Shown here: positions 7,335-45,420 of the stretch, piece after piece
Position numbering within the stretch: the first letter of the stretch is position 1
How the letters are laid out: the number at the start of each line of letters is the position of its first letter
Source: Campylobacteraceae bacterium
GTDB taxonomy: Bacteria; Campylobacterota; Campylobacteria; Campylobacterales; Sulfurovaceae
Direction: 5' to 3'
DNA: 49,187 bases
NCBI GenBank assembly: GCA_027035765.1
Contig: JALVUD010000007.1
Location: 1-49,187, forward strand
Notes under the pieces: model-generated
The model's input: the letters and a program-made list of their open reading frames with translations, nothing else
Told to the model about the DNA's origin: nothing
Database searches by the model: none
Translations under genes and position numbers: made by a program

Positions 7335-8440
7335 GCGGAGACCCCCCCTTCGACATCGTAGGTTTCCATCATCTCCCGGAAAAAGCGGTCGGAGGCCTTT
7401 TCCGGAAAGTGCTGTTTTACCAGTGTCAGAATCGTCTCTTTGGCGATCCGGTGCCGCAGGCAGGCCCGGTAGATATTTTGGCGGACAAAGTGGTTTTCGT
7501 CAAAGAAATAGCGGAGCATCTCTGCCAGAATATCGGCGGCAGAGGGGCAGAGATCCAGGCCGAATTTGGCGCAGGTGATCCGGATGGGAAGCTCTTCGCG
7601 TCGGAGGGCTTCCCGGACGAGACCACAGGCCTCCGCCCGGGAGAGAAAGAGAGAACGGATTGCCGCGGCGACGAGTTCCGGGTTGTCGGAATGGGCCTGA
7701 TAGATCCGTAAAATCAATGTACTCATCCCCGGTTGGCGGAAACGTCCAAGCGCTTCAGTGATACAGTGGAGGAGGTGAACCCGGATCGGGGCGGCCAGGA
7801 TCTGATCGATTGTCGCAGCCAGGGCATCGGATTCCAGATGCCGAAAGGCGACAAAGATCAGCATCTCGCAATAGTTGCGTCCCAGATGATGACGGGGGCC
7901 GGTCTCGGCAAGGACCTGGAGAAACTCCTCCGCTTCTTCGGGGCTGCCCACCGTTTTGGAGAGAGCGTAGATCGCCAGGCTGTAGAACCGTTGATCGCTC
8001 TCTTCCCGGATGATCTTCAGATAGAGAGGACGCTGATGGCTGCAGGGAAGGTCGGAGAGAAGCGAGAGGAAAAAGGCACGGCGATATCCAAAAAAAGCGT
8101 GCTGATAGGCCTCGGCCAGCCGTTCGTCGATCTTCTCCTGCCGGATCAGACGGCAGAACTCCCGATACTCTGCCGGCGTGGCGGCAGTGAACTCTCCCAG
8201 TGCCAGAGCACAACCGATGATCTCCCGCCGGGACTGCGGCGAGGGGTCGATCCGTGTCGCATGGGTCTCGACGGCTTTGCGGAGGAGGTCCCGCCAGCGT
8301 TTTTTCTCCCGTTCCATGCGCGCGAAGTATCGGTCAATCAGTTTTTTGACCCACGCCAGCAGGATCAGTCCCCCGACCGAGAGGATGAGAAAAAGGAGAA
8401 TCCCCAGCTCCGCATAGTGAATGATCAAATCGCTCTGCAT
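7331..8440 (-). CDS. Membrane-anchored HEAT-like repeat protein
   Basis: About 369 residues: a short periplasmic start, one membrane helix (IIHYAELGILLFLILSVGG, trailing into LILLAWV), a basic coiled segment (ARMEREKKRWRDLL) and then mostly paired helices with HEAT-like spacing, for example EEAEEFLQVLAETG and PELVAAAIRSLFLSRA. HEAT arrays are protein-binding scaffolds; here it probably connects the glycosyltransferase with the outer-membrane exporter or regulates it. ATG 8440 is preferred over GTG 8449 because AGGAAGAGG sits at a good distance. It lies 15 bp after the barrel gene and overlaps the glycosyltransferase start. Confidence 0.75.
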   Translation of the reverse strand: MQSDLIIHYAELGILLFLILSVGGLILLAWVKKLIDRYFARMEREKKRWRDLLRKAVETHATRIDPSPQSRREIIGCALALGEFTAATPAEYREFCRLIRQEKIDERLAEAYQHAFFGYRRAFFLSLLSDLPCSHQRPLYLKIIREESDQRFYSLAIYALSKTVGSPEEAEEFLQVLAETGPRHHLGRNYCEMLIFVAFRHLESDALAATIDQILAAPIRVHLLHCITEALGRFRQPGMSTLILRIYQAHSDNPELVAAAIRSLFLSRAEACGLVREALRREELPIRITCAKFGLDLCPSAADILAEMLRYFFDENHFVRQNIYRACLRHRIAKETILTLVKQHFPEKASDRFFREMMETYDVEGGVSA

Positions 8441-11296: not shown

Positions 11297-11749
11297 TCAG
11301 TAGGGGCTCTCTTCCTTTTTGATGTGGGATTGGGCCCACGCTTTGATCGCCTGGCGCTCCTGGGGAGTGAGGCGTGCATCCTTGTGGATCCACATGTAGT
11401 CGGCGGGAGGCATCTTCCAGTCGATGGATTTGGCGATCCCTTTGTAGAGCTTCTGCTTTTTCTCCTCGCTGTATCGGTTCCAGATAGAGAAGTTGAGCCA
11501 GTCTCTGCCGTCTCGTACGTGGGAGTCGACCTCCCAGGAGACCGGCGCGATATGACTGTACCAGGGCCAACGAGTATGGTTGGAGTGGCAGTCGTAGCAG
11601 GATTTTTTCAGCAGGGCCATGATCTCCTTGGGAGCTTTGATCTCATCCTGGGGACCGGCCTTGGGAGGTTCGGGGACTTTGATCTGGATGAGCTGAATGA
11701 CCAGCAGTCCGCCGATCAGCCAGCCCAGAAAGATCTTGAGGGTTTTCAT
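11297..11749 (-). CDS. Haem-binding domain protein (monohaem, CxxCH)
   Basis: A 150-residue exported protein: one N-terminal helix (LKIFLGWLIGGLLVIQLI) anchors it, followed by a haem site CYDCH and the family signature HTRWPWYSHIAPVSW. The C-terminal part contains MPPADYMWIH, where Met may be the distal haem ligand. Proteins of this haem_bd family are periplasmic, of unknown electron partner. The start overlaps the stop of the upstream 68-residue membrane protein (ATGA), so the two form an operon. Confidence 0.85.
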   Translation of the reverse strand: MKTLKIFLGWLIGGLLVIQLIQIKVPEPPKAGPQDEIKAPKEIMALLKKSCYDCHSNHTRWPWYSHIAPVSWEVDSHVRDGRDWLNFSIWNRYSEEKKQKLYKGIAKSIDWKMPPADYMWIHKDARLTPQERQAIKAWAQSHIKKEESPY

Positions 11750-33640: not shown

Positions 33641-36600
33641 TTTCTAAGCTGCCTGTGCGGCAGTGAACGAAGCGACCGGGGCTTCCTCGGTACAGGGTTG
33701 TTTCTAAGCTGCCTGTGCGGCAGTGAACCACATGACAGCGTGAGAGGTGCGCGGGAGCAGTTTCTAAGCTGCCTGTGCGGCAGTGAACGATCAGGAGCCC
33801 CGATATCAGCACAATAGATATTTCTAAGCTGCCTGTGCGGCAGTGAACTTGCAGCACTTGTTGGAATGGTTGTAAATTATTTTCTAAGCTGCCTGTGCGG
33901 CAGTGAACACGGGGGGCAGCTGCAATGCAATTACGACACATTTCTAAGCTGCCTGTGCGGCAGTGAACGGTACATGTCGTTGTGAGGCCGGTAAAGTAGA
34001 TTTCTAAGCTGCCTGTGCGGCAGTGAACACCCATAATGTAACTCAACTGGCAATAGTACATTTCTAAGCTGCCTGTGCGGCAGTGAACGGAGCGTTTTGG
34101 CGACGCCGGCGGACGGCGCGTTTCTAAGCTGCCTGTGCGGCAGTGAACGCCCATTAGATCGTCCTGCGGGACGGTCGTGTTTTCTAAGCTGCCTGTGCGG
34201 CAGTGAACACGATCACCAAGTCTCGGCGGGGATACAACGTTTTCTAAGCTGCCTGTGCGGCAGTGAACCCGGCCCAGCTCCGAAAGCTCCGTCTCCTTCA
34301 TTTCTAAGCTGCCTGTGCGGCAGTGAACGAAGCGACCGGGGCTTCCTCGGTACAGGGTTGTTTCTAAGCTGCCTGTGCGGCAGTGAACCCCAAGGGGCTC
34401 TTTGCCGAAATGGACAGGGATTTCTAAGCTGCCTGTGCGGCAGTGAACTTTTCCTTTCGTTGCTGTTTTGAGTCTATTTATTTCTAAGCTGCCTGTGCGG
34501 CAGTGAACTCCAGGAGCGTCAAAAATTCAAATCAGAAAAATTTCTAAGCTGCCTGTGCGGCAGTGAACGTTCCGGTTCGTCACCATCTCGGTTTCGATCT
34601 TTTCTAAGCTGCCTGTGCGGCAGTGAACCACATGACAGCGTGAGAGGTGCGCGGGAGCAGTTTCTAAGCTGCCTGTGCGGCAGTGAACTTGACGATTTTG
34701 GGGAGCATTTTGTCGTAGAATTTCTAAGCTGCCTGTGCGGCAGTGAACACGACGACCGGCCGGGCCGCCTCGACGGCGATTTTCTAAGCTGCCTGTGCGG
34801 CAGTGAACCCATAGTGTTTGGTCCAACCGTTGCCGCTCAGTTTCTAAGCTGCCTGTGCGGCAGTGAACGAGGTAGAAAACGTTGTTTGCGCTGGCATCGA
34901 TTTCTAAGCTGCCTGTGCGGCAGTGAACTATAGCGTTTGGATTGTTTGTCGTATATGGTTTTTCTAAGCTGCCTGTGCGGCAGTGAACAAAACCGTCTTT
35001 ATTATCTTGATCCAACTGATTTTCTAAGCTGCCTGTGCGGCAGTGAACTGAAAAAGTGGAGCATGAGATCCGGCCTCACTTTTCTAAGCTGCCTGTGCGG
35101 CAGTGAACATCGCCGGGGCGGGGTCCGCGATGATGCTGGCTTTCTAAGCTGCCTGTGCGGCAGTGAACTGGCTATCCTCGGTCTGATCGTTACTGGTTTG
35201 TTTCTAAGCTGCCTGTGCGGCAGTGAACTAGTGGGCGTCAGATCCCCTTGCCACGGTTGATTTCTAAGCTGCCTGTGCGGCAGTGAACAATGAACAGCAA
35301 AATAGGATTTACCGGATCCATTTCTAAGCTGCCTGTGCGGCAGTGAACTCACTCTCCACCTTTTTGTTTAGCGCGGCTATTTTCTAAGCTGCCTGTGCGG
35401 CAGTGAACCCTTTTCGGCCCGCTTGATGATGTCAAGGGCCTTTCTAAGCTGCCTGTGCGGCAGTGAACGATTTGGCCTTTTCCCACCCTTTGCCGATCCA
35501 TTTCTAAGCTGCCTGTGCGGCAGTGAACCCGAGCTGATCGACGCTCAGGCGCTTGGGGTTTTTCTAAGCTGCCTGTGCGGCAGTGAACGCTCTATGTGCT
35601 GATCTTTCGCGGGGTTCTGATTTCTAAGCTGCCTGTGCGGCAGTGAACCACAGAATCCGGTAGGAGAATTGATGCTATCATTTCTAAGCTGCCTGTGCGG
35701 CAGTGAACTGGGCGCTCATCAGTAGAGCTGCCACGGCTGGTTTCTAAGCTGCCTGTGCGGCAGTGAACGAGGACAAGAAAAATCAACACAATAACCATTA
35801 TTTCTAAGCTGCCTGTGCGGCAGTGAACTAATTGCGTCTGTTGCGGTTGTTGCAGTTGTTTTTCTAAGCTGCCTGTGCGGCAGTGAACGGTGCTGTTCTT
35901 GTCGCTGCTGCTGTTATGTGTTTCTAAGCTGCCTGTGCGGCAGTGAACTTTGGCTACAAGCCGGAGCAACAGGTGCTGGATTTCTAAGCTGCCTGTGCGG
36001 CAGTGAACCGTTTGATAAATTCGAGCACATTGATGACTTTTTTCTAAGCTGCCTGTGCGGCAGTGAACAAGTGCGGGGATTACCTCTTTTTCGAGGGTCC
36101 TTTCTAAGCTGCCTGTGCGGCAGTGAACACAAGATTGAACCAATGGTCCGGTTGAGAAATTTTCTAAGCTGCCTGTGCGGCAGTGAACTAAGATAGAGCC
36201 GCTTGGATGAGGATTTGATCTTTCTAAGCTGCCTGTGCGGCAGTGAACCCCAGGTGCTCTTGAGGCGGGTGGGGTGATGGTTTCTAAGCTGCCTGTGCGG
36301 CAGTGAACGACCGGACCACTTTTGAAGTGGACGGCTACACTTTCTAAGCTGCCTGTGCGGCAGTGAACAACGTCAACGCGAAGATCATCGTCGCGTATGT
36401 TTTCTAAGCTGCCTGTGCGGCAGTGAACGCTACGAAAACCAATATAGAAGAAAAATAAGCTTTCTAAGCTGCCTGTGCGGCAGTGAACGGCACTGGGAGA
36501 GGAAAGCGAAGTGTTCAGGTTTTCTAAGCTGCCTGTGCGGCAGTGAACTGGTGATATGCTTCGAGTGAATATTCGCAGGTTTTCTAAGCTGCCTGTGCGG

Positions 36601-37089
36601 CAGTGAACACATCCAAAACTTCACCACGCTTACCATCAGCGTTTCTAAGCTGCCTGTGCGGCAGTGAACTGATCAATACAATGATCCGAAAATCACAGAT
36701 ATTTCTAAGCTGCCTGTGCGGCAGTGAACTGACCAGGTAACGCATTCAACGGCTCCGTTTTTTTCTAAGCTGCCTGTGCGGCAGTGAACTGGTGGATCGA
36801 TCTGTGGGATTCGATCGCCAATTTCTAAGCTGCCTGTGCGGCAGTGAACCCGATCGAGTTCAGCGTCGAATCGGCGCTGGATTTCTAAGCTGCCTGTGCG
36901 GCAGTGAACCCTTCCATCTGCCCGACGAGGAAATCGTAGGATTTCTAAGCTGCCTGTGCGGCAGTGAACCCTGAAGGAGATCACGTATGACGAGGTTGTC
37001 ATTTCTAAGCTGCCTGTGCGGCAGTGAACAATATGAACTACTCCTGCAAGCGGTTGAAGCATTTCTAAGCTGCCTGTGCGGCAGTGAAC
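33641..37089 (-). CRISPR. Type I-F CRISPR array, 58 repeats and 57 spacers
   Basis: A 28-nt repeat recurs every 60 bp and all 58 copies look identical. In crRNA orientation (minus strand) it starts GTTCACTGCC-GCACA-GGCAG and ends CTTAGAAA, the type I-F form with the 5-5-5 Cas6f hairpin. All spacers are 32 nt except one of 33 nt at 36609-36641. Orientation of the hairpin, the cas operon and a promoter at 37115-37123 place the leader on the right, so spacers nearest 37089 are the newest. Spacers at 33669 and 34329 are identical, as are those at 33729 and 34629. Confidence 0.99.
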
Positions 37090-37219: not shown

Positions 37220-37849
37220 TCAAAAATCAGGAAGCGTGGGGCATTTGCTCAAATCAAATTCCTTGGAATTTTTGGCTTGGTCGCATTTGCTTAAACCAAA
37301 GGTAGTAAATTTTCCTTCTCGTGGAAATTCGACCGTCCCTTTGGCAATGAAAATTCGCGTTTTTTGCCCCGTCGAAGTACTATGGAAATTAAAATAGGGG
37401 AGTTTGTTGTTTTGGATTTTTTCGTCGGTATCGAAAGTTGCATATCGTTGCAACGCTTCCTCATAAGAAACTCCGTGTCGCTTGGCATAGCGCCTGGCCT
37501 GGCGTAGGGGATTGGTCTTGAACTGTTTGCGGCGAAAGACGACATGACCGTGTTCAGCCGGGGTTTGTCGGATTTCTGAGATTTTGACATAGTCGGCTAA
37601 GTCGGAAAGCATATTTTCCAAAGACAATTTTTCTAGTGTCGTTTCATCGGGAGCGAATACCCTCAAACGATCACCTAAAGGAAAATCGCCCCCGTAACGG
37701 GGGAAGGTAAATCCCACCGGCACAGCTCCTTCGGCATCCTTGAGAGGCACCAAGGCTTTGTGAAGCCGCTCGTAAAGTTTTTGCCAGATGAATCCCAAGG
37801 AGATTTCGGTGTCATCAAATAGACGGATCTCCCGATAGATCGGCATCAT
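37220..37849 (-). CDS. cas6f: CRISPR pre-crRNA endoribonuclease Cas6f (Csy4)
   Basis: 209 residues (208 from the second Met). YREIRLF begins the fold; YERLHKAL holds the catalytic His (29 from the second Met, as in Pseudomonas Csy4). RRKQFKTNPLRQARRYAKRH is the arginine-rich helix that grips the repeat hairpin, and FHSTSTGQKTRIFI holds the active-site Ser region. It cuts after the CTGCC-GCACA-GGCAG hairpin and stays bound. The end is unusual: where Csy4 normally finishes GLSK plus a short FVPWF-like tail, this protein has a 14-residue in-frame insertion giving two LSKC copies. It overlaps cas7f by ATGA. Confidence 0.95.
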   Translation of the reverse strand: MMPIYREIRLFDDTEISLGFIWQKLYERLHKALVPLKDAEGAVPVGFTFPRYGGDFPLGDRLRVFAPDETTLEKLSLENMLSDLADYVKISEIRQTPAEHGHVVFRRKQFKTNPLRQARRYAKRHGVSYEEALQRYATFDTDEKIQNNKLPYFNFHSTSTGQKTRIFIAKGTVEFPREGKFTTFGLSKCDQAKNSKEFDLSKCPTLPDF

Positions 37850-38874
37850 TTGTCACTCTCCCCGAAGACTCCGCCCCGCACCAGTACGGCCATGACATAG
37901 TGGCGCTGATCTTCATCGATATCTTCACCCGCGATCAGTTGATCAAAAAGGGTGAAAAAGTCCTCTTTGTTTTTGGGGTTGCGAAAGGCGCGCCCCAGGT
38001 TGGTGACCGCTCCGTAGGGTTCGACGGCGATGGGGCGTTGCTCTTCGATGTAGTCGCTGTACCAGGTATCGATGGTACGTAAGGCATTGCCGAGTTTTTG
38101 GGAGTGCATCGCCGCGATGCCGTCAACTTCGTAAAGCACCTTGCTTTTTTTGCCCTGACCTTTGTCCAGCACCAGCTCTTCGCTGGGATAGACCTCCTGG
38201 GCTTTGCCGATCTTGGCGTAGCAGACGATATCCAGAAGTAGGTAATCCTCCGTGGAAGCCAGCGTCTGGGCGATCAGCTCTCCAAGCTCGTTGACTGCAG
38301 CATCATCTTTGTCAAAATCACGGATGGGGTAGGATTTGGCATCGAAACGCCAGGTTTTTTGGTCTCTACCTTCATGATCCATCCGCGTCACGATCACCTC
38401 GATCTTTTCAGCTCCCACTCGGTTGCGCCAGAGGAAGCGGGCATTGGCCAGGTTCATCGCATAGCGGCAGCCCAGCTCTTTGAATCCCTCCTCTTCGATA
38501 TAGTTTTGCACAACCTTTTGATACGCTTTCAAAAATTCGGGTTCGTTACACGCCGACGGTTCCAGGAGATTGCCCAGCACCTTGAGAGTGAAATGGAGCT
38601 TGAGGGTGTCTTGATCCTCACCCAAAGCGCAGCTGTCAACGGTTTGCAGGTTGGGTTTTTCCACTTCGGCGTTGAGTTTGGCAGGATCGTTGGCGACGGC
38701 GGGTTTGAGGCGGTTGCTGATGGTGCCTCGTACCGATTTTTCTACCAGTTTCAGCGGTGTAGTGCTTCCCGTCTCATGCCGATTTTCCCAGGTCGTGCCA
38801 TAGAGATACCCGTCGGAAGGGACCAATTTTTTCTCGAATGCCAGAACGGAAACGGTGTTTTTTTTCTTTGCCAT
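37846..38874 (-). CDS. cas7f: CRISPR backbone protein Cas7f (Csy3)
   Basis: 342 residues. MAKKKNTVSVLAFEKKLVPSDG (first 20 diagnostic), LVEKSVRGTISNR, CRYAMNLANARFLWRNRVGA and SYPIRDFD are characteristic of Csy3. Six copies coat the spacer part of the crRNA in the Csy complex. ATG with AAGGAG; 3 bp after the cas5f stop. Length is normal for the family. Confidence 0.97.
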   Translation of the reverse strand: MAKKKNTVSVLAFEKKLVPSDGYLYGTTWENRHETGSTTPLKLVEKSVRGTISNRLKPAVANDPAKLNAEVEKPNLQTVDSCALGEDQDTLKLHFTLKVLGNLLEPSACNEPEFLKAYQKVVQNYIEEEGFKELGCRYAMNLANARFLWRNRVGAEKIEVIVTRMDHEGRDQKTWRFDAKSYPIRDFDKDDAAVNELGELIAQTLASTEDYLLLDIVCYAKIGKAQEVYPSEELVLDKGQGKKSKVLYEVDGIAAMHSQKLGNALRTIDTWYSDYIEEQRPIAVEPYGAVTNLGRAFRNPKNKEDFFTLFDQLIAGEDIDEDQRHYVMAVLVRGGVFGESDK

Positions 38875-38877
38875 GAT

Positions 38878-39744
38878 TTACTCCTTGGTTGATGTTTTGG
38901 TTTCACACAAATAGAGGGAAGTTTTTGCATCGTAGCGATACTCCCACAGCATTTCATCCAGACTTTCCAGGCGGTGGGGCATCCGAAACTCTCCCGTCGT
39001 CACCACGCTTTCGGCAAAGCGGTGCGGCGTGTCGGGATCGCGCTGGTTTTTTGCCCTGCCGAGCTGGGTGATCCCCATAAAGCCGATGGCGAGGGGGACA
39101 ATCCATCCCTCCTGGGTACGTCCCGACTGCCATACGACTTCATCCCCCTCTTCTTGGCATTGATGATGCACAGCCAGAATGTCAATGAGTGCATCCAGGG
39201 CATCGGCCCCATCTTGCATCTTCGCTTTCATCAGATCGCGCCGTTCGATCAATGCATAGCCGGGGCCGATGATACGCAGAAGTTTCGCAGGCTGATCGAT
39301 TGACGCGATCAGGGGCTTATCGAAACCTAGGATATCCCCGCTTGCCAGTTTCATTCGCCGTAATGTTTCGGAAACGAACGCAACAAGTCGGTCGCCGAGG
39401 TAATCCAGGTATCCTTCGCCTAGTTCAACAACTAGTGACACATCCAGATGGATACGTGCCTCTTCGATGAAGGAGGGACGCTCACCTTTTTGATCCAGCG
39501 GGTTGGCGGTGCCGACGATGGAAGCGACGAAATCCCCGGGACCGCGATAGGTGTGTAGATCGTAATCGTGACAGACGACCCCCACCGATGAAAAACGAAG
39601 CGCTTCGAGTCCGTCGCCAAGTTTTCGCTCCAACGCGTGCACTCCCCCCAGCCACGCCGTCATGGCGGGAAAACCCAGGGTATAGGGGCTGGAAAGCGCA
39701 TTGGCGTTTTGGATACGGATATGGGGAATGATCAGAGAGTTCAT
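38878..39744 (-). CDS. cas5f: CRISPR complex subunit Cas5f (Csy2)
   Basis: 288 residues. IIPHIRIQNANALSSPYTLGFPAMTAWLGGVHALERKL is the typical Csy2 start (the invariant HIxIxNANA and GFPA-TA-LG elements). It binds the crRNA 5' handle CTTAGAAA next to Cas8f. The start is fixed by ATGA overlap with cas8f; the longer frame runs back into cas8f and is not used. Confidence 0.95.
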   Translation of the reverse strand: MNSLIIPHIRIQNANALSSPYTLGFPAMTAWLGGVHALERKLGDGLEALRFSSVGVVCHDYDLHTYRGPGDFVASIVGTANPLDQKGERPSFIEEARIHLDVSLVVELGEGYLDYLGDRLVAFVSETLRRMKLASGDILGFDKPLIASIDQPAKLLRIIGPGYALIERRDLMKAKMQDGADALDALIDILAVHHQCQEEGDEVVWQSGRTQEGWIVPLAIGFMGITQLGRAKNQRDPDTPHRFAESVVTTGEFRMPHRLESLDEMLWEYRYDAKTSLYLCETKTSTKE

Positions 39745-41009
39745 CGTAGGGCCTCCTTGGATGCTTCGACACTTTCGCGGATATCGGCCAACTCTGCAGG
39801 CCCCAGTTTGAGCCCTTTGCGTTTGGTGTTGCTTTCGATCTGGTGCAGGATCCATCGGCTGATACGATCGATCAACTCATCGAGCCACGTATCCTGGGTC
39901 TCTCTTTGCTTCTTGTATTGTTCACAGAGCCAGATCTTTTGGTACTCAGGCAGCCTGGAATCTTCCTCTCGATACTGCTCAAAGCTGACGCTTCGCACCC
40001 GCATCATTTGCGTGATGATCAGATCCATCAACTGCTCGTAGCGATACTTACGTCCGCGGCGGATATCGACATTGTTGTAGTCGGTCGTGATGATCGCATC
40101 GAGGCTTTTTAGAATATCTCGGACTTTACGGTAGGGAAGCGATTCTGTAAAAAAGTCTTTTTTGGGAAAGCGTATCTTGCGCCGCTCGATCTTGGGCGGC
40201 AAGGAAGCCAGCAGATAGGCCTTGCCGCCGTAGCGGTTGTTGAGGACGGAGATGTTTTGGGGTTTTGTGCCGCCGTAGCCAATGACTGTCAGTTCGAAAA
40301 GCTCCTTGTAGTGCGGCGGTTCGATGCATTCGCTCTTTTTGCGGGCTTCACGTGCCGCTTTGGCTTCATCAGAGTAACGCAAATGATCGATACGCTCTTT
40401 GAGCTCAAAGACGATCCCCGAATTGGTCAAGATCGAAAGCAAGTGATATTCACGTCGGGCGATCGGGAAATAGACCTGTTTGATCTTGCTACTGGTAACC
40501 GTCTCGCTTTCACCCGCACCGATCATTGCCAAAAAGCCATCGCGAAGATTTTCGTAACTCTCGGTTGCGATATCCAAAAGCTTTCTGGCCAGAGGAGACT
40601 CATCCCGAATATGCTCGATCACCTTTTTGCCGTCATCAAGGAGCAGGTCGAGGAATTTATGTACATCCAGTACCGCCGCATTGCCCAAGGCATCGGTTTG
40701 TGCGCTTTTGACATTGCCGCAGCGAAGGAAACCATCCGGGGCTGCAGGCGCATCGCAAATGACCGGGGTGACATCTCCATTTTTGTTTTTGCGGCTGGAA
40801 GGGTGGGAAAAGGTACACGGGTGGGTGGCCATCGACATCTGTCCCGCCCGCCTGGCCGCATCGGGGAGCCAATGTTCGGGCAAAAACTTCTCCTCCGCCT
40901 CTTCATGAAGTCGCTGTACAGTCTCTTCGTCCATCGACTTTTTGATTTTTTGCTTGAGCCATGCCTCTTTCCGTTCATGAAAAAAGGCTTCGATGGTCGA
41001 TAAGCTCAT
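39741..41009 (-). CDS. cas8f: CRISPR complex large subunit Cas8f (Csy1)
   Basis: 422 residues. FFHERKEAWLKQKIKK at the start, ATHPCTFSHPSSRKN, SARRS-like YSDEAKAAREARKKS and PHYKELFELTVIGYGGTKPQNIS match Csy1. It recognises the CC PAM and, with Cas5f, holds the crRNA 5' handle. Start ATG with a perfect AAAGGAGG six bases upstream. It is the first gene of the four-gene Csy operon, whose promoter lies in the regulatory gap upstream. Confidence 0.95.
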   Translation of the reverse strand: MSLSTIEAFFHERKEAWLKQKIKKSMDEETVQRLHEEAEEKFLPEHWLPDAARRAGQMSMATHPCTFSHPSSRKNKNGDVTPVICDAPAAPDGFLRCGNVKSAQTDALGNAAVLDVHKFLDLLLDDGKKVIEHIRDESPLARKLLDIATESYENLRDGFLAMIGAGESETVTSSKIKQVYFPIARREYHLLSILTNSGIVFELKERIDHLRYSDEAKAAREARKKSECIEPPHYKELFELTVIGYGGTKPQNISVLNNRYGGKAYLLASLPPKIERRKIRFPKKDFFTESLPYRKVRDILKSLDAIITTDYNNVDIRRGRKYRYEQLMDLIITQMMRVRSVSFEQYREEDSRLPEYQKIWLCEQYKKQRETQDTWLDELIDRISRWILHQIESNTKRKGLKLGPAELADIRESVEASKEALR

Positions 41010-41028: not shown

Positions 41029-41056
41029 GGATTTTCATGCCTATTCGGCAGTCGAC
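41029..41056 (-). repeat. Degenerate CRISPR repeat 3, in the cas8f leader
   Basis: 28 nt, 16 identical to the array repeat. On the minus strand it keeps CTGCC-GAATA-GGCAT, a Cas6f-like hairpin with the basal pair broken. It would be the very 5' end of the cas8f mRNA. Confidence 0.65.
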
Positions 41057-41063
41057 TTGTGAA

Positions 41064-41093
41064 AGTATAGCGTATGTATAAATATTAAGTCAA
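41064..41093 (-). promoter_or_regulatory. Promoter of the cas8f-5f-7f-6f operon
   Basis: Minus strand: TTGACT (41088-41093), 18-bp spacer, TATACT (41064-41069). The expected start point is about 41057, at the edge of degenerate repeat 3. This is the best -35/-10 pair in the window. Confidence 0.8.
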
Positions 41094-41097
41094 GTAT
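41078..41097 (-). promoter_or_regulatory. Predicted CreR target over the Csy operon -35
   Basis: ATACTTGACTTAATATTTAT on the minus strand, 18 of 20 identical to the guide at 41158-41177, with CC (41098-41099) directly 5', the type I-F PAM. It covers the -35 hexamer. The mismatches are at guide positions 10 and 18; positions 1-9 match. Confidence 0.8.
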
Positions 41098-41129
41098 GGC
41101 ATTTTATTTTTTGGCCGACCCCATTGAAA

Positions 41130-41157
41130 ACGTTTAGCTACCTATTCGGCAGTTGAC
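41130..41157 (-). repeat. Degenerate CRISPR repeat 2
   Basis: 28 nt, 18 identical to the array repeat. On the minus strand it reads GTCAACTGCCGAATAGGTAG then a diverged tail; the hairpin CTGCC-GAATA-GGTAG keeps five pairs with one G-U. Confidence 0.8.
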
Positions 41158-41177
41158 ATCAATATTAGGTCAAGTAT

Positions 41178-41205
41178 CTTCTAAGCTGCTATTTCTGCAG
41201 TCAAC
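41178..41205 (-). repeat. Degenerate CRISPR repeat 1
   Basis: 28 nt, 21 identical to the array repeat, including GCAGCTTAGAA that forms the crRNA 5' handle. The hairpin is CTGCA-GAAAT-AGCAG, four pairs with an A-A mismatch at the top. It starts where the TATAAT upstream would begin transcription. Confidence 0.85.
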
Positions 41206-41211
41206 GATTCA

Positions 41212-41241
41212 ATTATACCTATTTCTGTTCAAAAAGCCCAA
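41212..41241 (-). promoter_or_regulatory. Promoter of the predicted CreR RNA
   Basis: Minus strand: TTGGGC (41236-41241), 18-bp spacer, TATAAT (41212-41217) lying just past the cas2-3 stop. Start point about 41205, the first base of degenerate repeat 1. Confidence 0.65.
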
Positions 41242-44200
41242 ACTGATCATGATACCGATATTCGATGTTTCCGATATCCGACTCTTTATAAACCTGCCAG
41301 CTGATCTCTCCGAAGCGTAGTGTGAGCCCTTGAGGCGACAGGTTAAAAAGCTCACTGTAGCGCTCGATGATGCTTTCATAGTCTCTTTCAAGCCAAAACC
41401 GCTCGCTTGGTTCGAGATCGATCACCCGGATACCCAGCGCCTCTTCCCGATCGACGGGATGTCCCTCCTCATCCAGCTCGGCGAAATAGATACGATCTTT
41501 CTCTTCGTCGTAGACCCGATAGCATTTGATAGTGGGAGAGCTTTTGCGAAAGGGGTGGTAGTGCATCGGCATGGCCGTCAGGTGCCACTGCCCCCGCAAA
41601 AAGCCTTCCAGTTTCGCGGCGTAGGGGTTGTCGTATTGTGTCAGCCACTGCGCCACGGCGAAATGCTCCAGGTCGGCCAGCCGTTTCGTCGGCTCCAAAG
41701 GTTCGTTTTTTCGGATTCTGGGGATCGCATCGATCGTCGCTCGGATCGCCGCTTCATCGACAAGCTGCTTCATGTCGTGGGTGCTCAGCGTAGTATCCAC
41801 TTCAAATCCGGGTCGAACGAAATAGCGCTTGCCGCTTCGATCCCCGTCCGAGAAGGCTCGATAGTTGTATCGCAAGATAGCGATATTGGGTTTTTCGATT
41901 TCGCCTATGCGGTGCCTGCGTACTCGCCCCGCCAGCTGGATGATGGAGCGGTACGAAGAGGGCTCCACCACCGCCCAGTCGAAATCGTGGTCTCTCCCCA
42001 CCTCTTCTACCGGCGTGGCGACGACGACAAAGAGGATATCGTCATGCCGTGCGCGATCGATATGGTGCCGGAGTATGGGATCGTTCAAAATGGCCGCATC
42101 GCTTTCGTTTTCATTTTTGCGTTTGAGAAGTTTGTCCAGATAGCGCTCCTGATCGTGGCGCATCAGAAGCACCTGCTGGGAGTGATAGACCATAAAACGC
42201 AGATCGAAATCTTTTAACGGAGTGTACAAAAGATGGTATCCCAGCTCCACGCACGGGGTGATGTTGGCCATACGCACCACCCCTACAGAGATCCGTTTGC
42301 CGCTTATCGGATCGACGAGATGGTGATCGCGGTGGAGCCGATACATCTGCGCCACGATGTCGGCGAAGTAGGACTTGGTATCGTGAGGTTCTTCGGGTTT
42401 TAGATCGGTGATGATGCCGCGACGTTTGGGCGGAAGAGCTTGGAGTTTTTTGACCCGTGCATCGATGAAGCGGCGATGGACTTTCCGATACACCTCTTGC
42501 GACTTTGCATCGACGGGTATCGCTTGGTGATCGCTTTTGAACTCGTCACACCAAAAGGCGTCGATCATTCCGTCCGCACCGTCGTGTGAGTCAGCAAAGA
42601 TGCGCCATCCCATGCTGTAGGCATGGAAAAAGCCTTCGGCCAGATCGGGCGGGATCGTCGCCGATGAGATCATCACTTTGCGCCCCAGCATCCCGGCCAG
42701 AAAAACGAGTCGCCCGATGGCGATGAGGTCCGATTCGACAAAATCATCGATCTCGTCGATGACGATGTCCGAACTCATCAGACGCAAAGCCGGCAGCAGC
42801 CAACGTCCTCCTTTGGGGGTATCCACCGCGCCCATAAGATGATCGATCGTCGCTACCAAAACAGGGACGTAGAGAATCTTGCGCTCTTTTTCACCCCGCA
42901 AAACGGTAGAGAGATAGCCTTCATCCACCGGCACGTCGTAGATCACCTCTTCATCCGTCAGCTCCTCCAGAGATTCGCTTCCGGCCGCTTCGGGATCCAG
43001 GGGCGACTTGTCAAGCTCTTCTTTCGATGCGGCATGCAGTTGGATGGTCGCTTTGGAGCCGATCACCACGGCCATATCTTCGCTCTGAAGTCCCAGACGC
43101 GAACGGTACTCATCCCCCGTTTGCAAGGTCAACGTACGCAACCCCAGAGCCAGGATATAGCGCAAACTTTTCGCATCACTCGAGAGCGCACGCATGATTT
43201 TGGCGTTGGCGATCGTTTTTCCCATGCCGGTGCTGGCCATATTGACGGCGAAAAATCCCCGTTTTCGCTCTTTGGGATTGTAAAATTCGGCAATTTTGCG
43301 TACCGCTTTGTCTTGCCAGGCAAAGGGGGCAGGCGAGGGTTTGCGTAGTTTGGCGACCTTCCGGCTTTGCGGCAACTCTTCCCGCAACAGCGGCAATCGA
43401 TAGAGAATCGAAAGCGCGGTTTTACATACACCGCACAGGTGTTCATCGAGCCGCTGATTGAAGGTTTTGTTTTTGCGGTCGGTATTGGCAAAAAGCTCTA
43501 CGGTTTTTGGCCATGTAGGATTTGCAGTTTGAGCGGAGTAGTTGTGATCGCCCAGCATCAAAGCCAGGCGACTATGGTGCAAAATGTAGCGTAGCATTCC
43601 GTTTTCTTCGGCCATTTTCAACCGATCTTCGGCGTTGGTCAGCCGATGCACCCATCGTTTGAGCTCGGCGCGCCATTTGTGCGACTCCAAAAGGAGTCCC
43701 TGGGGAAATTCCAAACAGGGCGCTTCGTTTTCCTTGACGTTTTGATACCCCCAACTTTCGGATACAGTATAAAAAAACGCCTCCAGGTGGGGCAAGGGGC
43801 TCTCTTTGCCCACCTCTCTGTCTTTGTCATTCAATAGCGGCAAACGGTGATGTGAGAGGATCTGCCAGGCGATCAGCTGTGCATCCAAGGGCAGTGTCGC
43901 GAATGCTTCAAAACGAAATGTTTTGAGCTTTTTGAGGATGGAAGCCGTATCCATGTGATCATTGAGAATGCGCTCTTTCCAGGTATCCGGGTCGATGGAG
44001 ACAAAACTACCCAAAAGCATCACGCTGACCCACTCGTGACGCAATGCGTCGGCTTTAATCGATGAATCCCGTAGTTTCTCCTGAAAGCAGCGGCTTGCTT
44101 TGCCCCAATCGTGAAAAAGCGCGGCAACGGCCGTCAGCGCTTTCATCAGATCCATATCTCTCCAGTCGTTCTCTTCGTAGAGTTTGAGCAAATCGATGGA

Positions 44201-44479
44201 GGTGCGATGTACGGGAACAATGCCTTGAGTGTTGAATTTTTCCCGATTGCCCACGATCCACAACAGATCGCTGCGGCTGCGGCTTCGGATCCAGTGGCAG
44301 GCGACGGCGGTGTTTTTGATGGCGGTGCGCCGTAGCAGTTTGTGTACGGTGTTTAGCCCCTCTTTAGTGATGACGGTGCGCCAGGTATTGGTGCCGATAC
44401 GGTCGGCGAAACTATCGAGGATGCGGCGGGTGCGCTTGAGAGCCCCTTTTTCACATTCGGAGACAAAGATCACCATCAT
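41219..44479 (-). CDS. cas3: CRISPR Cas2-Cas3 fusion nuclease-helicase (type I-F)
   Basis: 1086 residues. The N-terminal about 90 form the Cas2 domain (MMVIFVSECEKGALKRTRRI). The HD nuclease follows with LFHDWGKASR (His123, Asp124). The superfamily 2 helicase has ASTGMGKTIANAK (Walker A), VIDEIDDF (DExH-type), MISSATIPPD (motif III), VATPVEEVGRDHDFDW and QLAGRVRRHR (motif VI). It degrades targets recruited by the Csy complex and, through Cas2, joins Cas1 in spacer integration. The start ATG overlaps the cas1 stop in CATGATGG. Length is usual for I-F. Confidence 0.96.
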   Translation of the reverse strand: MMVIFVSECEKGALKRTRRILDSFADRIGTNTWRTVITKEGLNTVHKLLRRTAIKNTAVACHWIRSRSRSDLLWIVGNREKFNTQGIVPVHRTSIDLLKLYEENDWRDMDLMKALTAVAALFHDWGKASRCFQEKLRDSSIKADALRHEWVSVMLLGSFVSIDPDTWKERILNDHMDTASILKKLKTFRFEAFATLPLDAQLIAWQILSHHRLPLLNDKDREVGKESPLPHLEAFFYTVSESWGYQNVKENEAPCLEFPQGLLLESHKWRAELKRWVHRLTNAEDRLKMAEENGMLRYILHHSRLALMLGDHNYSAQTANPTWPKTVELFANTDRKNKTFNQRLDEHLCGVCKTALSILYRLPLLREELPQSRKVAKLRKPSPAPFAWQDKAVRKIAEFYNPKERKRGFFAVNMASTGMGKTIANAKIMRALSSDAKSLRYILALGLRTLTLQTGDEYRSRLGLQSEDMAVVIGSKATIQLHAASKEELDKSPLDPEAAGSESLEELTDEEVIYDVPVDEGYLSTVLRGEKERKILYVPVLVATIDHLMGAVDTPKGGRWLLPALRLMSSDIVIDEIDDFVESDLIAIGRLVFLAGMLGRKVMISSATIPPDLAEGFFHAYSMGWRIFADSHDGADGMIDAFWCDEFKSDHQAIPVDAKSQEVYRKVHRRFIDARVKKLQALPPKRRGIITDLKPEEPHDTKSYFADIVAQMYRLHRDHHLVDPISGKRISVGVVRMANITPCVELGYHLLYTPLKDFDLRFMVYHSQQVLLMRHDQERYLDKLLKRKNENESDAAILNDPILRHHIDRARHDDILFVVVATPVEEVGRDHDFDWAVVEPSSYRSIIQLAGRVRRHRIGEIEKPNIAILRYNYRAFSDGDRSGKRYFVRPGFEVDTTLSTHDMKQLVDEAAIRATIDAIPRIRKNEPLEPTKRLADLEHFAVAQWLTQYDNPYAAKLEGFLRGQWHLTAMPMHYHPFRKSSPTIKCYRVYDEEKDRIYFAELDEEGHPVDREEALGIRVIDLEPSERFWLERDYESIIERYSELFNLSPQGLTLRFGEISWQVYKESDIGNIEYRYHDQFGLFEQK

Positions 44480-45420
44480 GGCCGTACTCCGAAACGCTGG
44501 GCGATCGCTTCGACCTGATCGAAAAGAAAGCTCAACGCCCCGTGCTCGACAAAGCGCTGCAGGCACTGGGTACGGAAGGTCTGGTCTTCCACCCCCTCTT
44601 TGGCGCTGATAAAGGCCTGGGGCAGTACGATGGCATCCTTGATGAGATCGGCGATATCGAATACCAAGGCGCCCCGACGGGTTTTGCCGTGCATCAGGGC
44701 AAAGGCGTGAGGGATACCCAGCGCCCAGAGCGTTGTGGCGGCCATCCCGTAGGCCAGGTAGTTGCCGTGATCCAGAAAGTCGTTGGCCGGATCGGCGTTG
44801 TTGCGCTCTCGGGTAAAGCCCGACATTCCCGTCTGCTTGGCGGCGAATTTGTAGAGTCGCTTGGTCAAATCGGCTTCGAGTTGCAAAAGCTTGCCCGTAT
44901 TGGGTGCTTGATCGATCTTTTTTGAAAACCCATCCACCATCTTTTCGATCGCTTCCGCTTCAAAGCCTTCCATGCGGAAATCGCGATCTTTGCGCCACAC
45001 ACGCAGAATAAAGGCAAGGCGCTCTTTTTGCAGCGCTTTGGCCGCTTCGAGTCGTTTGGCTTCGTCGAACCAAAACGAAAGCCAGCGCTGCACATACTCG
45101 GTGGGGCGGTATTCGCTCTGGGGCGTGAGCCACTCGATCTCGGCACCCATAAACAGCGGCGTCGCCCCTCCTCCGCAAAAACCGACCAGTACGCCGGCTT
45201 GCGAGAGCATCCGCATGGCCGCCTGGGTGACGGAGGTGCCCGTGCCAAGCAGCAGGCAGGTGGTGTTGGCGATGGGGAGGTTCCAGTAGCGATTGTCTTT
45301 TTTGTCTTCGCTCAGATAGACCACGCGCCCATCTTTTTGCATGACGCGGCACATTTCCAGGTAGTAGATATTGGCCCGCTTGGAGTGCAGGATCGCTTTG
45401 AGGTCGGTGAGTTGGTCCAT
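44476..45420 (-). CDS. cas1: CRISPR integrase Cas1 (type I-F)
   Basis: 314 residues. LKAILHSKRANIYYLEMCRVMQKDGRVVYL is the I-F Cas1 start; FCGGGATPLFMGAEIEW, NDFLDHGNYLAYGMAATTLWALGIPHAFALMHGKTRRGALVFDIADLIKD carry the catalytic Glu/His/Asp region (His of HGKTRRG, Asp of FDIADL). It inserts new spacers next to the leader, with Cas2-3. It is the first gene of the cas1-cas2-3 unit, with its own extended -10. Confidence 0.96.
   Translation of the reverse strand: MDQLTDLKAILHSKRANIYYLEMCRVMQKDGRVVYLSEDKKDNRYWNLPIANTTCLLLGTGTSVTQAAMRMLSQAGVLVGFCGGGATPLFMGAEIEWLTPQSEYRPTEYVQRWLSFWFDEAKRLEAAKALQKERLAFILRVWRKDRDFRMEGFEAEAIEKMVDGFSKKIDQAPNTGKLLQLEADLTKRLYKFAAKQTGMSGFTRERNNADPANDFLDHGNYLAYGMAATTLWALGIPHAFALMHGKTRRGALVFDIADLIKDAIVLPQAFISAKEGVEDQTFRTQCLQRFVEHGALSFLFDQVEAIAQRFGVRP

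Follow-up and report, generated by a model that had tools for sequence, protein, structure and literature searches.

Cas-regulating RNAs (CreRs) have been reported in CRISPR types I-B, I-E and V-A (Liu et al. 2023, Cell Host Microbe, as cited in PMC13131331 and PMC12737573). As these citing papers describe them, they are modulatory mini-CRISPRs with a short guide that partly matches a cas promoter beside a protospacer-adjacent motif (PAM), and they do not need a toxin gene. In the type I-F CreTA module of Acinetobacter WCHA45, a CreA guide encoded in the cas3-csy1 gap represses a toxic RNA (PMC10097628), and in CrePA the CreP toxin is repressed by CreA (PMC12737573). We describe here a mini-CRISPR in the gap between cas2-3 and cas8f of a type I-F system, found in a 49,187-nt stretch of DNA from a Campylobacteraceae bacterium (the whole of which is called the window below). 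The gap very probably encodes a type I-F CreR, through which the Csy complex would repress cas8f-5f-7f-6f.

The window differs from the known CreRs, as far as the citing papers describe them, in its type, in its position between cas2-3 and cas8f, and in its mRNA leader, which has a third hairpin resembling the repeat; the I-F guides are also distinct in their direction, which is that of the csy operon in Campylobacterota and the opposite one in Pseudomonadota. We found no open paper on a type I-F CreR, although Liu et al. 2023 or its supplement may list I-F cases. With the Acinetobacter module the window shares the intergenic region, two degenerate repeats, a 20-nt guide, a CC PAM, an 8-nt handle, and unpaired or tolerated guide positions (6, 10-12 and 18-20). 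The Acinetobacter guide represses a toxic RNA, however, whereas the target promoter of the window reads directly into cas8f, with no conserved toxin seen. As in CrePA, a neighbouring gene would be repressed under CRISPR guidance until anti-CRISPRs lift the repression, but the window has no toxin gene. Given that CreRs are known in three other types and that a toxin-repressing I-F CreA occupies the same gap in Acinetobacter, the module can be seen as a type I-F variant of known regulation.

Type I-F systems are the source of much anti-CRISPR work, and to our knowledge little is established on how they set their own dose. The module described here would be a short circuit for such dose control that is open to testing and that, with unlike guides, is seen repeatedly in two phyla.

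The mini-CRISPR and its target

An earlier note on this DNA had claimed that two degenerate repeats (R1, 21/28 identical to the array repeat, and R2, 18/28) flank a 20-nt spacer whose minus-strand guide matches the -35 region of the cas8f promoter at 18/20 positions, with CC beside the target and AG at the guide's own locus. These observations were all reproduced (Table 1), as were the handle CTTAGAAG kept at the 3' end of R1 and a TATAAT box past the cas2-3 stop. In the shuffled window (45.5 kb), about 0.55 repeat-like sites scoring at least 18/28 are expected per strand, and none scoring at least 21/28 was seen (the highest was 20). The sole Rfam match was that of R1 to CRISPR-DR4, at 19.3 bits, which is below the gathering score, and R2 folds at -6.6 kcal/mol. 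Two repeat-like sites elsewhere in the window (8165-8192 and 11704-11731) were dropped as chance palindromes.

The mini-CRISPR stands 4 kb from the array and has the layout of a CreR, with two degenerate repeats and one shortened spacer. It is not a canonical array, given the divergence of its repeats and a spacer of 20 nt, against 32-33 nt in the array. Decayed arrays are common, and the mini-CRISPR repeats do resemble the array repeat (GTTCACTGCCGCACAGGCAGCTTAGAAA), as expected if this were an ordinary degraded array with a spacer that targets its own genome by accident. The short spacer and the recurrence of the same layout with different guides in two phyla speak against this explanation, which is already contradicted by the comparative data given below and which we consider scarcely credible.

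The TTGACT element of the predicted cas8f promoter (41093-41088) lies inside the guide target and is followed, after an 18-nt spacer, by TATACT (41069-41064). The guide is thus partly complementary to a cas promoter beside a valid PAM, as are those of 31 other loci, and its two mismatched positions are 10 and 18. When the entire 2.03-Mb genome was searched by pattern with up to 3 mismatches allowed, two sites came up, the target and the copy in the guide itself. The latter is without a PAM, so that the target is the only PAM-bearing match. None of 2000 shuffled guides reached the observed CC-flanked match (p=0.0005).

The target promoter runs straight into cas8f, the only gene downstream of it, with no protein gene between. 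This arrangement bears on whether the guide might instead be the CreA of a CreTA module, keeping down a small toxin RNA (creT) encoded where the cas8f transcript begins; loss of Csy would then poison the cell. A module of that kind, with a 20-nt guide and a CC PAM, is present in the Acinetobacter cas3-csy1 gap (PMC10097628), toxin-like genes lie beside guides in relatives of the window, and the cas8f 5' untranslated region (UTR) contains, by chance or not, a 33-bp mini open reading frame (41038-41006). The mini-frame has no convincing Shine-Dalgarno site, however, and no equivalent was seen in three related loci (L007, L011 and L024). A conserved creT mini-frame was sought and rejected, as the 33-bp frame is not conserved in relatives, and a toxin target of the CreTA kind is lacking. 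A variant in which the untranslated cas8f leader is itself toxic may be considered. Since only about 50 nt separate the predicted start site from the cas8f ATG, and since the mini-frame lacks conservation and runs into the cas8f start, we prefer a CreR and regard a CreA as improbable.

Table 1. Features of the type I-F locus in the window, with the basis of each assignment
Feature	Position	Strand	Basis
R3, third repeat-like hairpin, at about +1 of predicted cas8f mRNA	41029-41056	-	p=0.001 for repeat-like hairpin
Predicted cas8f promoter, TTGACT-N18-TATACT	41064-41093	-	10/12 in consensus scan
Guide target ATACTTGACTTAATATTTAT, over -35 of cas8f promoter	41078-41097	-	18/20 against guide
CC PAM of target	41098-41099	-	sequence
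Degenerate repeat R2, Cas6f hairpin retained, 3' end decayed	41130-41157	-	18/28 against array repeat
Predicted mature CreR RNA, 48 nt (8-nt handle, 20-nt guide, 20-nt 3' hairpin)	41138-41185	-	by analogy with Acinetobacter WCHA45 I-F CreA (PMC10097628)
Guide ATACTTGACCTAATATTGAT, 20 nt	41158-41177	-	18/20 against target
Degenerate repeat R1, hairpin and 5' handle CTTAGAAG (41185-41178)	41178-41205	-	21/28 against array repeat
TATAAT, predicted CreR -10 box	41212-41217	-	sequence; past cas2-3 stop
cas1f	44476-45420	-	TIGR03637, 2.1e-138
cas2-3 (cas3f), upstream neighbour of gap	41219-44566	-	TIGR02562, 1.1e-279; stop codon 41221-41219
cas8f (csy1), first gene of the putatively repressed operon	39741-41009	-	TIGR02564, 2e-59
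cas5f (csy2)	38878-39744	-	TIGR02565, 1.8e-61 for reading frame 38878-39855; internal ATG as probable start
cas7f (csy3)	37846-38874	-	TIGR02566, 2e-124
cas6f (csy4), predicted CreR processor	37220-37849	-	TIGR02563, 3.4e-34
CRISPR array	33641-37089	-	58 perfect repeats, 57 spacers (56 of 32 nt, one of 33)

Comparison across type I-F loci

We surveyed 83 distinct type I-F loci (designated by L numbers), which are a sample and not a census. The cas2-3/cas8f gap is shorter than 100 nt in 46 of them and longer in 37, and in 29 of the longer gaps the scoring picked out a short spacer between two repeat-like units. L083, one of these 29, proved to be a false hit (9/18, p=0.86), and L011, outside the 29, has a further mini-CRISPR with an unusual R1. 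When the first 18 guide bases were compared with the CC-flanked sites in all gaps, guides matched their own gap at a mean of 15.3/18 and the gaps of other loci at 9.2/18. The own gap gave the best match in 28 of the 29 loci, and the best site irrespective of PAM was a CC site in 28 of 29. Guides vary among loci, covarying with their own targets.

The earlier note had suggested comparing this gap among relatives, with conserved repeats around a guide that fails to match the promoter as the outcome that would speak against a CreR. That pattern was not what the relatives displayed, and the CreR-like interpretation gains support from the own-gap matches, the CC motifs, the covarying guides and the placement of mismatches described below.

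Four more such guides occur upstream of cas1 (L032, L058, L061 and L064), giving a total of 33 guide-target pairs in 32 loci, the window and 31 others from Campylobacterota and Pseudomonadota, which fall into 23 groups of unlike guides. Both positions are occupied in L058, whose guide upstream of cas1 and whose guide in the cas2-3/cas8f gap each match a separate CC-flanked site. Many of the pseudomonadote guides run antisense to the operon and have a strong terminator (a hairpin followed by a T run) directly adjoining R2. The terminator of L035 was seen in a purpose-made scan, the standard scan being blank owing to its loop limit. The guides of Campylobacterota are sense to cas8f, and the terminator scan showed no strong terminator at them, so the guide could also be transcribed by read-through from cas2-3. 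A -10-like hexamer 5' of R1 can be read by eye in L004, L007, L008, L011 and L024.

Constraint on the guide-target pairs and repeats

According to a type I-F study (PMC7305327), every sixth base of the guide is flipped out in type I effectors, and whether it pairs is of little consequence. In the unbiased scan, the mismatches at guide positions 6, 12 and 18 numbered 16, 16 and 18, with 0-4 at each other position; when L083 was left out, 50 of 70 mismatches fell at these three positions. With one pair taken per guide group, 43 of 59 mismatches were at 6, 12 and 18 (p=2e-21), a count that slightly favours the pattern, as four pairs were found by a search ignoring these positions and L011 was added by eye. 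The unbiased scan is for that reason the cleaner test of the footprint. At the 15 non-flipped positions, 32 of the 33 pairs have 14 or 15 matches. The clustering of mismatches at flipped positions indicates that selection acts on the guide-target pairs as R-loops in the Csy complex, to judge from these alignments. The period-6 footprint would thus be a readout, by natural selection, of base flipping by the effector, and it offers a sharp computational criterion for real guide-target pairs.

The repeats are constrained in a corresponding manner. Across 28 loci, R1 is nearly invariant in its CTTAGAAA handle and along the 3' arm of its hairpin, and its first five bases are free. In R2 the five stem pairs and G20 are all kept (28/28), and the last eight bases decay. 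The conserved segments are those left in a mature RNA of 8+20+20 nt, the form found for the Acinetobacter CreA by small-RNA sequencing (PMC10097628). Sequence, fold and this constraint all point to repeats that retain what Cas6 and the effector need, namely the hairpin and the 5' handle.

These patterns bear on a further explanation, that a local duplication, with a spacer-repeat unit copied beside the promoter, left guide and target alike as a relic with no present function. A tandem duplication would give the collinearity of spacer-R2 and target-R3 seen in L004, L007 and L106. Neutral decay, however, would not put mismatches at 6, 12 and 18, nor would it spare only those halves of R1 and R2 that form the RNA or leave the R2 stems paired in every locus compared. 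We judge a functionless relic to be very improbable, slightly more so than a CreA.

Proposed mechanism

The CreR, which the comparison supports, could act as follows. An RNA would begin near R1, and Cas6f would cut both degenerate repeats to release a 48-nt RNA resembling a CRISPR RNA (crRNA), which would be loaded into the Csy complex. The complex would recognise CC and the 20-bp target over the cas8f -35 element, and once bound would block transcription of cas8f-5f-7f-6f. As suggested by the known CreA and CreR RNAs, a 20-nt, imperfectly paired guide would be too short to trigger cutting by Cas2-3. The Csy complex would so keep its own level down, and by analogy with the CreRs of types I-B, I-E and V-A, repression would be relieved when array crRNAs or anti-CRISPRs draw complexes away.

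Several observations weigh against this proposal. The -35 element of the CreR promoter is weak (TTGGGC, with a spacing of 18 nt), and position 10, one of the two mismatched positions in the window, is not a flipped one. Moreover L015, the closest relative (cas8f 87% identical), is without the module, so the module is dispensable and subject to fast turnover. In favour of the proposal, both mismatched positions of the window, 10 and 18, are ones at which disruption is tolerated or pairing is naturally absent in the tested Acinetobacter I-F CreA (PMC10097628).

A third repeat-like hairpin in the cas8f leader

What is new here is R3, a third hairpin resembling the repeat, which covaries and stands where the cas8f mRNA begins; it was absent from the earlier note. 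An R3-like hairpin was found in every one of the 10 campylobacterote loci whose cas8f leader could be read downstream of a promoter of this kind (each p<=0.01); these are nine loci with the guide in view and L017, whose contig begins inside the leader. In 18 pseudomonadote-type loci no R3-like hairpin stands out (lowest p 0.027). The four inner pairs of R3 form in 10/10 loci, three of them varying on both sides, and the covariation score is above those of all 500 shuffles and all slid versions. The outer pair, which from the placement of the Csy4 cleavage site is where cutting would occur, is broken in half of the loci, and G20 is retained in 3/10.

The collinearity of target-R3 with guide-R2 in L004, L007 and L106 suggests that R3 arose by duplication of the spacer-repeat unit. 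R3 is possibly a leader hairpin that binds Cas6f and is poorly cleaved, and thus a putative Cas6f sensor; it is also possible that R3 is a relic or a plain mRNA-stabilising hairpin. In the window, GUCGAC at the 5' end of R3 (41056-41051) is able to base-pair with the GUCGAC at 41016-41011, adjacent to the Shine-Dalgarno site, with a fold z-score of -2.25, and a possible role of this pairing around R3 is that of an RNA switch. We put forward only tentatively, and with more doubt than confidence, that the cas operon is under two levels of repeat-based control. The CreR guide and the whole Csy complex would shut the promoter, and the largely cleavage-resistant R3, bound by free Cas6f, would add a post-transcriptional feedback responsive to how much Cas6f there is relative to crRNA precursors.

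A search for R3-like hairpins upstream of cas1 gave two strong matches in Providencia (L070 and L092), about 250 nt upstream. These are well-preserved, intact-looking repeats (CTGCCGCATAGGCAG and CTGCCGTATAGGCAG, respectively), either an array end or an ectopic repeat.

Turnover of the module and toxin-like genes in the gap

On a Cas8f tree of the sampled loci the module was gained and lost repeatedly, with 24 label changes. L065 and L067 are only about 0.005 changes per site apart in Cas8f, yet differ in the module, and the window likewise differs from its sister L015.

In L033 and L010, a gene for a PBECR3-like nuclease lies directly downstream of the promoter-target-R1-guide-R2 unit, in place of a bare cas promoter. 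The gene encodes about 136 aa (118-532 of the L033 gap and 142-550 of the L010/L041 gap) and matches PF18812 with E=6.7e-7 and 5e-5, narrowly missing the gathering score. R1-guide-R2 lies in its 5' UTR and the guide's CC target in its promoter, and the product is likely to be a CRISPR-repressed protein toxin, as judged from this arrangement. The minus strand of the L093 gap encodes a TacA1-like antitoxin (PF08681, 6.5e-18) and a GNAT acetyltransferase, with a mini-CRISPR and target (16/18, CC) upstream; this is apparently a conventional toxin-antitoxin operon under putative CRISPR control. Unlike CrePA, these three loci carry PBECR3-like or GNAT proteins and not a KilA-N domain.

Because the module turns over and sister loci hold a guide plus a toxin-like gene, we infer that the cas2-3/cas8f gap is a cassette site for CRISPR-controlled modules. 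The gap alternates between holding nothing, a self-regulating unit or toxin genes, and on this view autoregulation and CRISPR addiction would be connected as two forms of a single module.

Four loci (L056, L058, L059 and L063) have a small open reading frame of 58-75 aa between the guide target and cas8f, with a shared KRYV/KKYV..ET.T start. A convincing Pfam match to it was not found; the product could be a toxin or a Cas accessory protein behind the target promoter. The gaps of L083, L090 and L091 hold other pairs that look like toxin-antitoxin genes (RelE/HigA-like and RHH/ParE-like by eye), with no recognisable guide.

Gene layout of the window

The type I-F system is complete and lies on the minus strand in the order cas1f, cas2-3, cas8f, cas5f, cas7f, cas6f and CRISPR array, the gap from the cas2-3 stop (41219) to the cas8f ATG (41009) being 210 nt. 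Among the 57 spacers of the array, CTGCTCCCGCGCACCTCTCACGCTGTCATGTG and CAACCCTGTACCGAGGAAGCCCCGGTCGCTTC are each present twice, a sign of internal array duplication.
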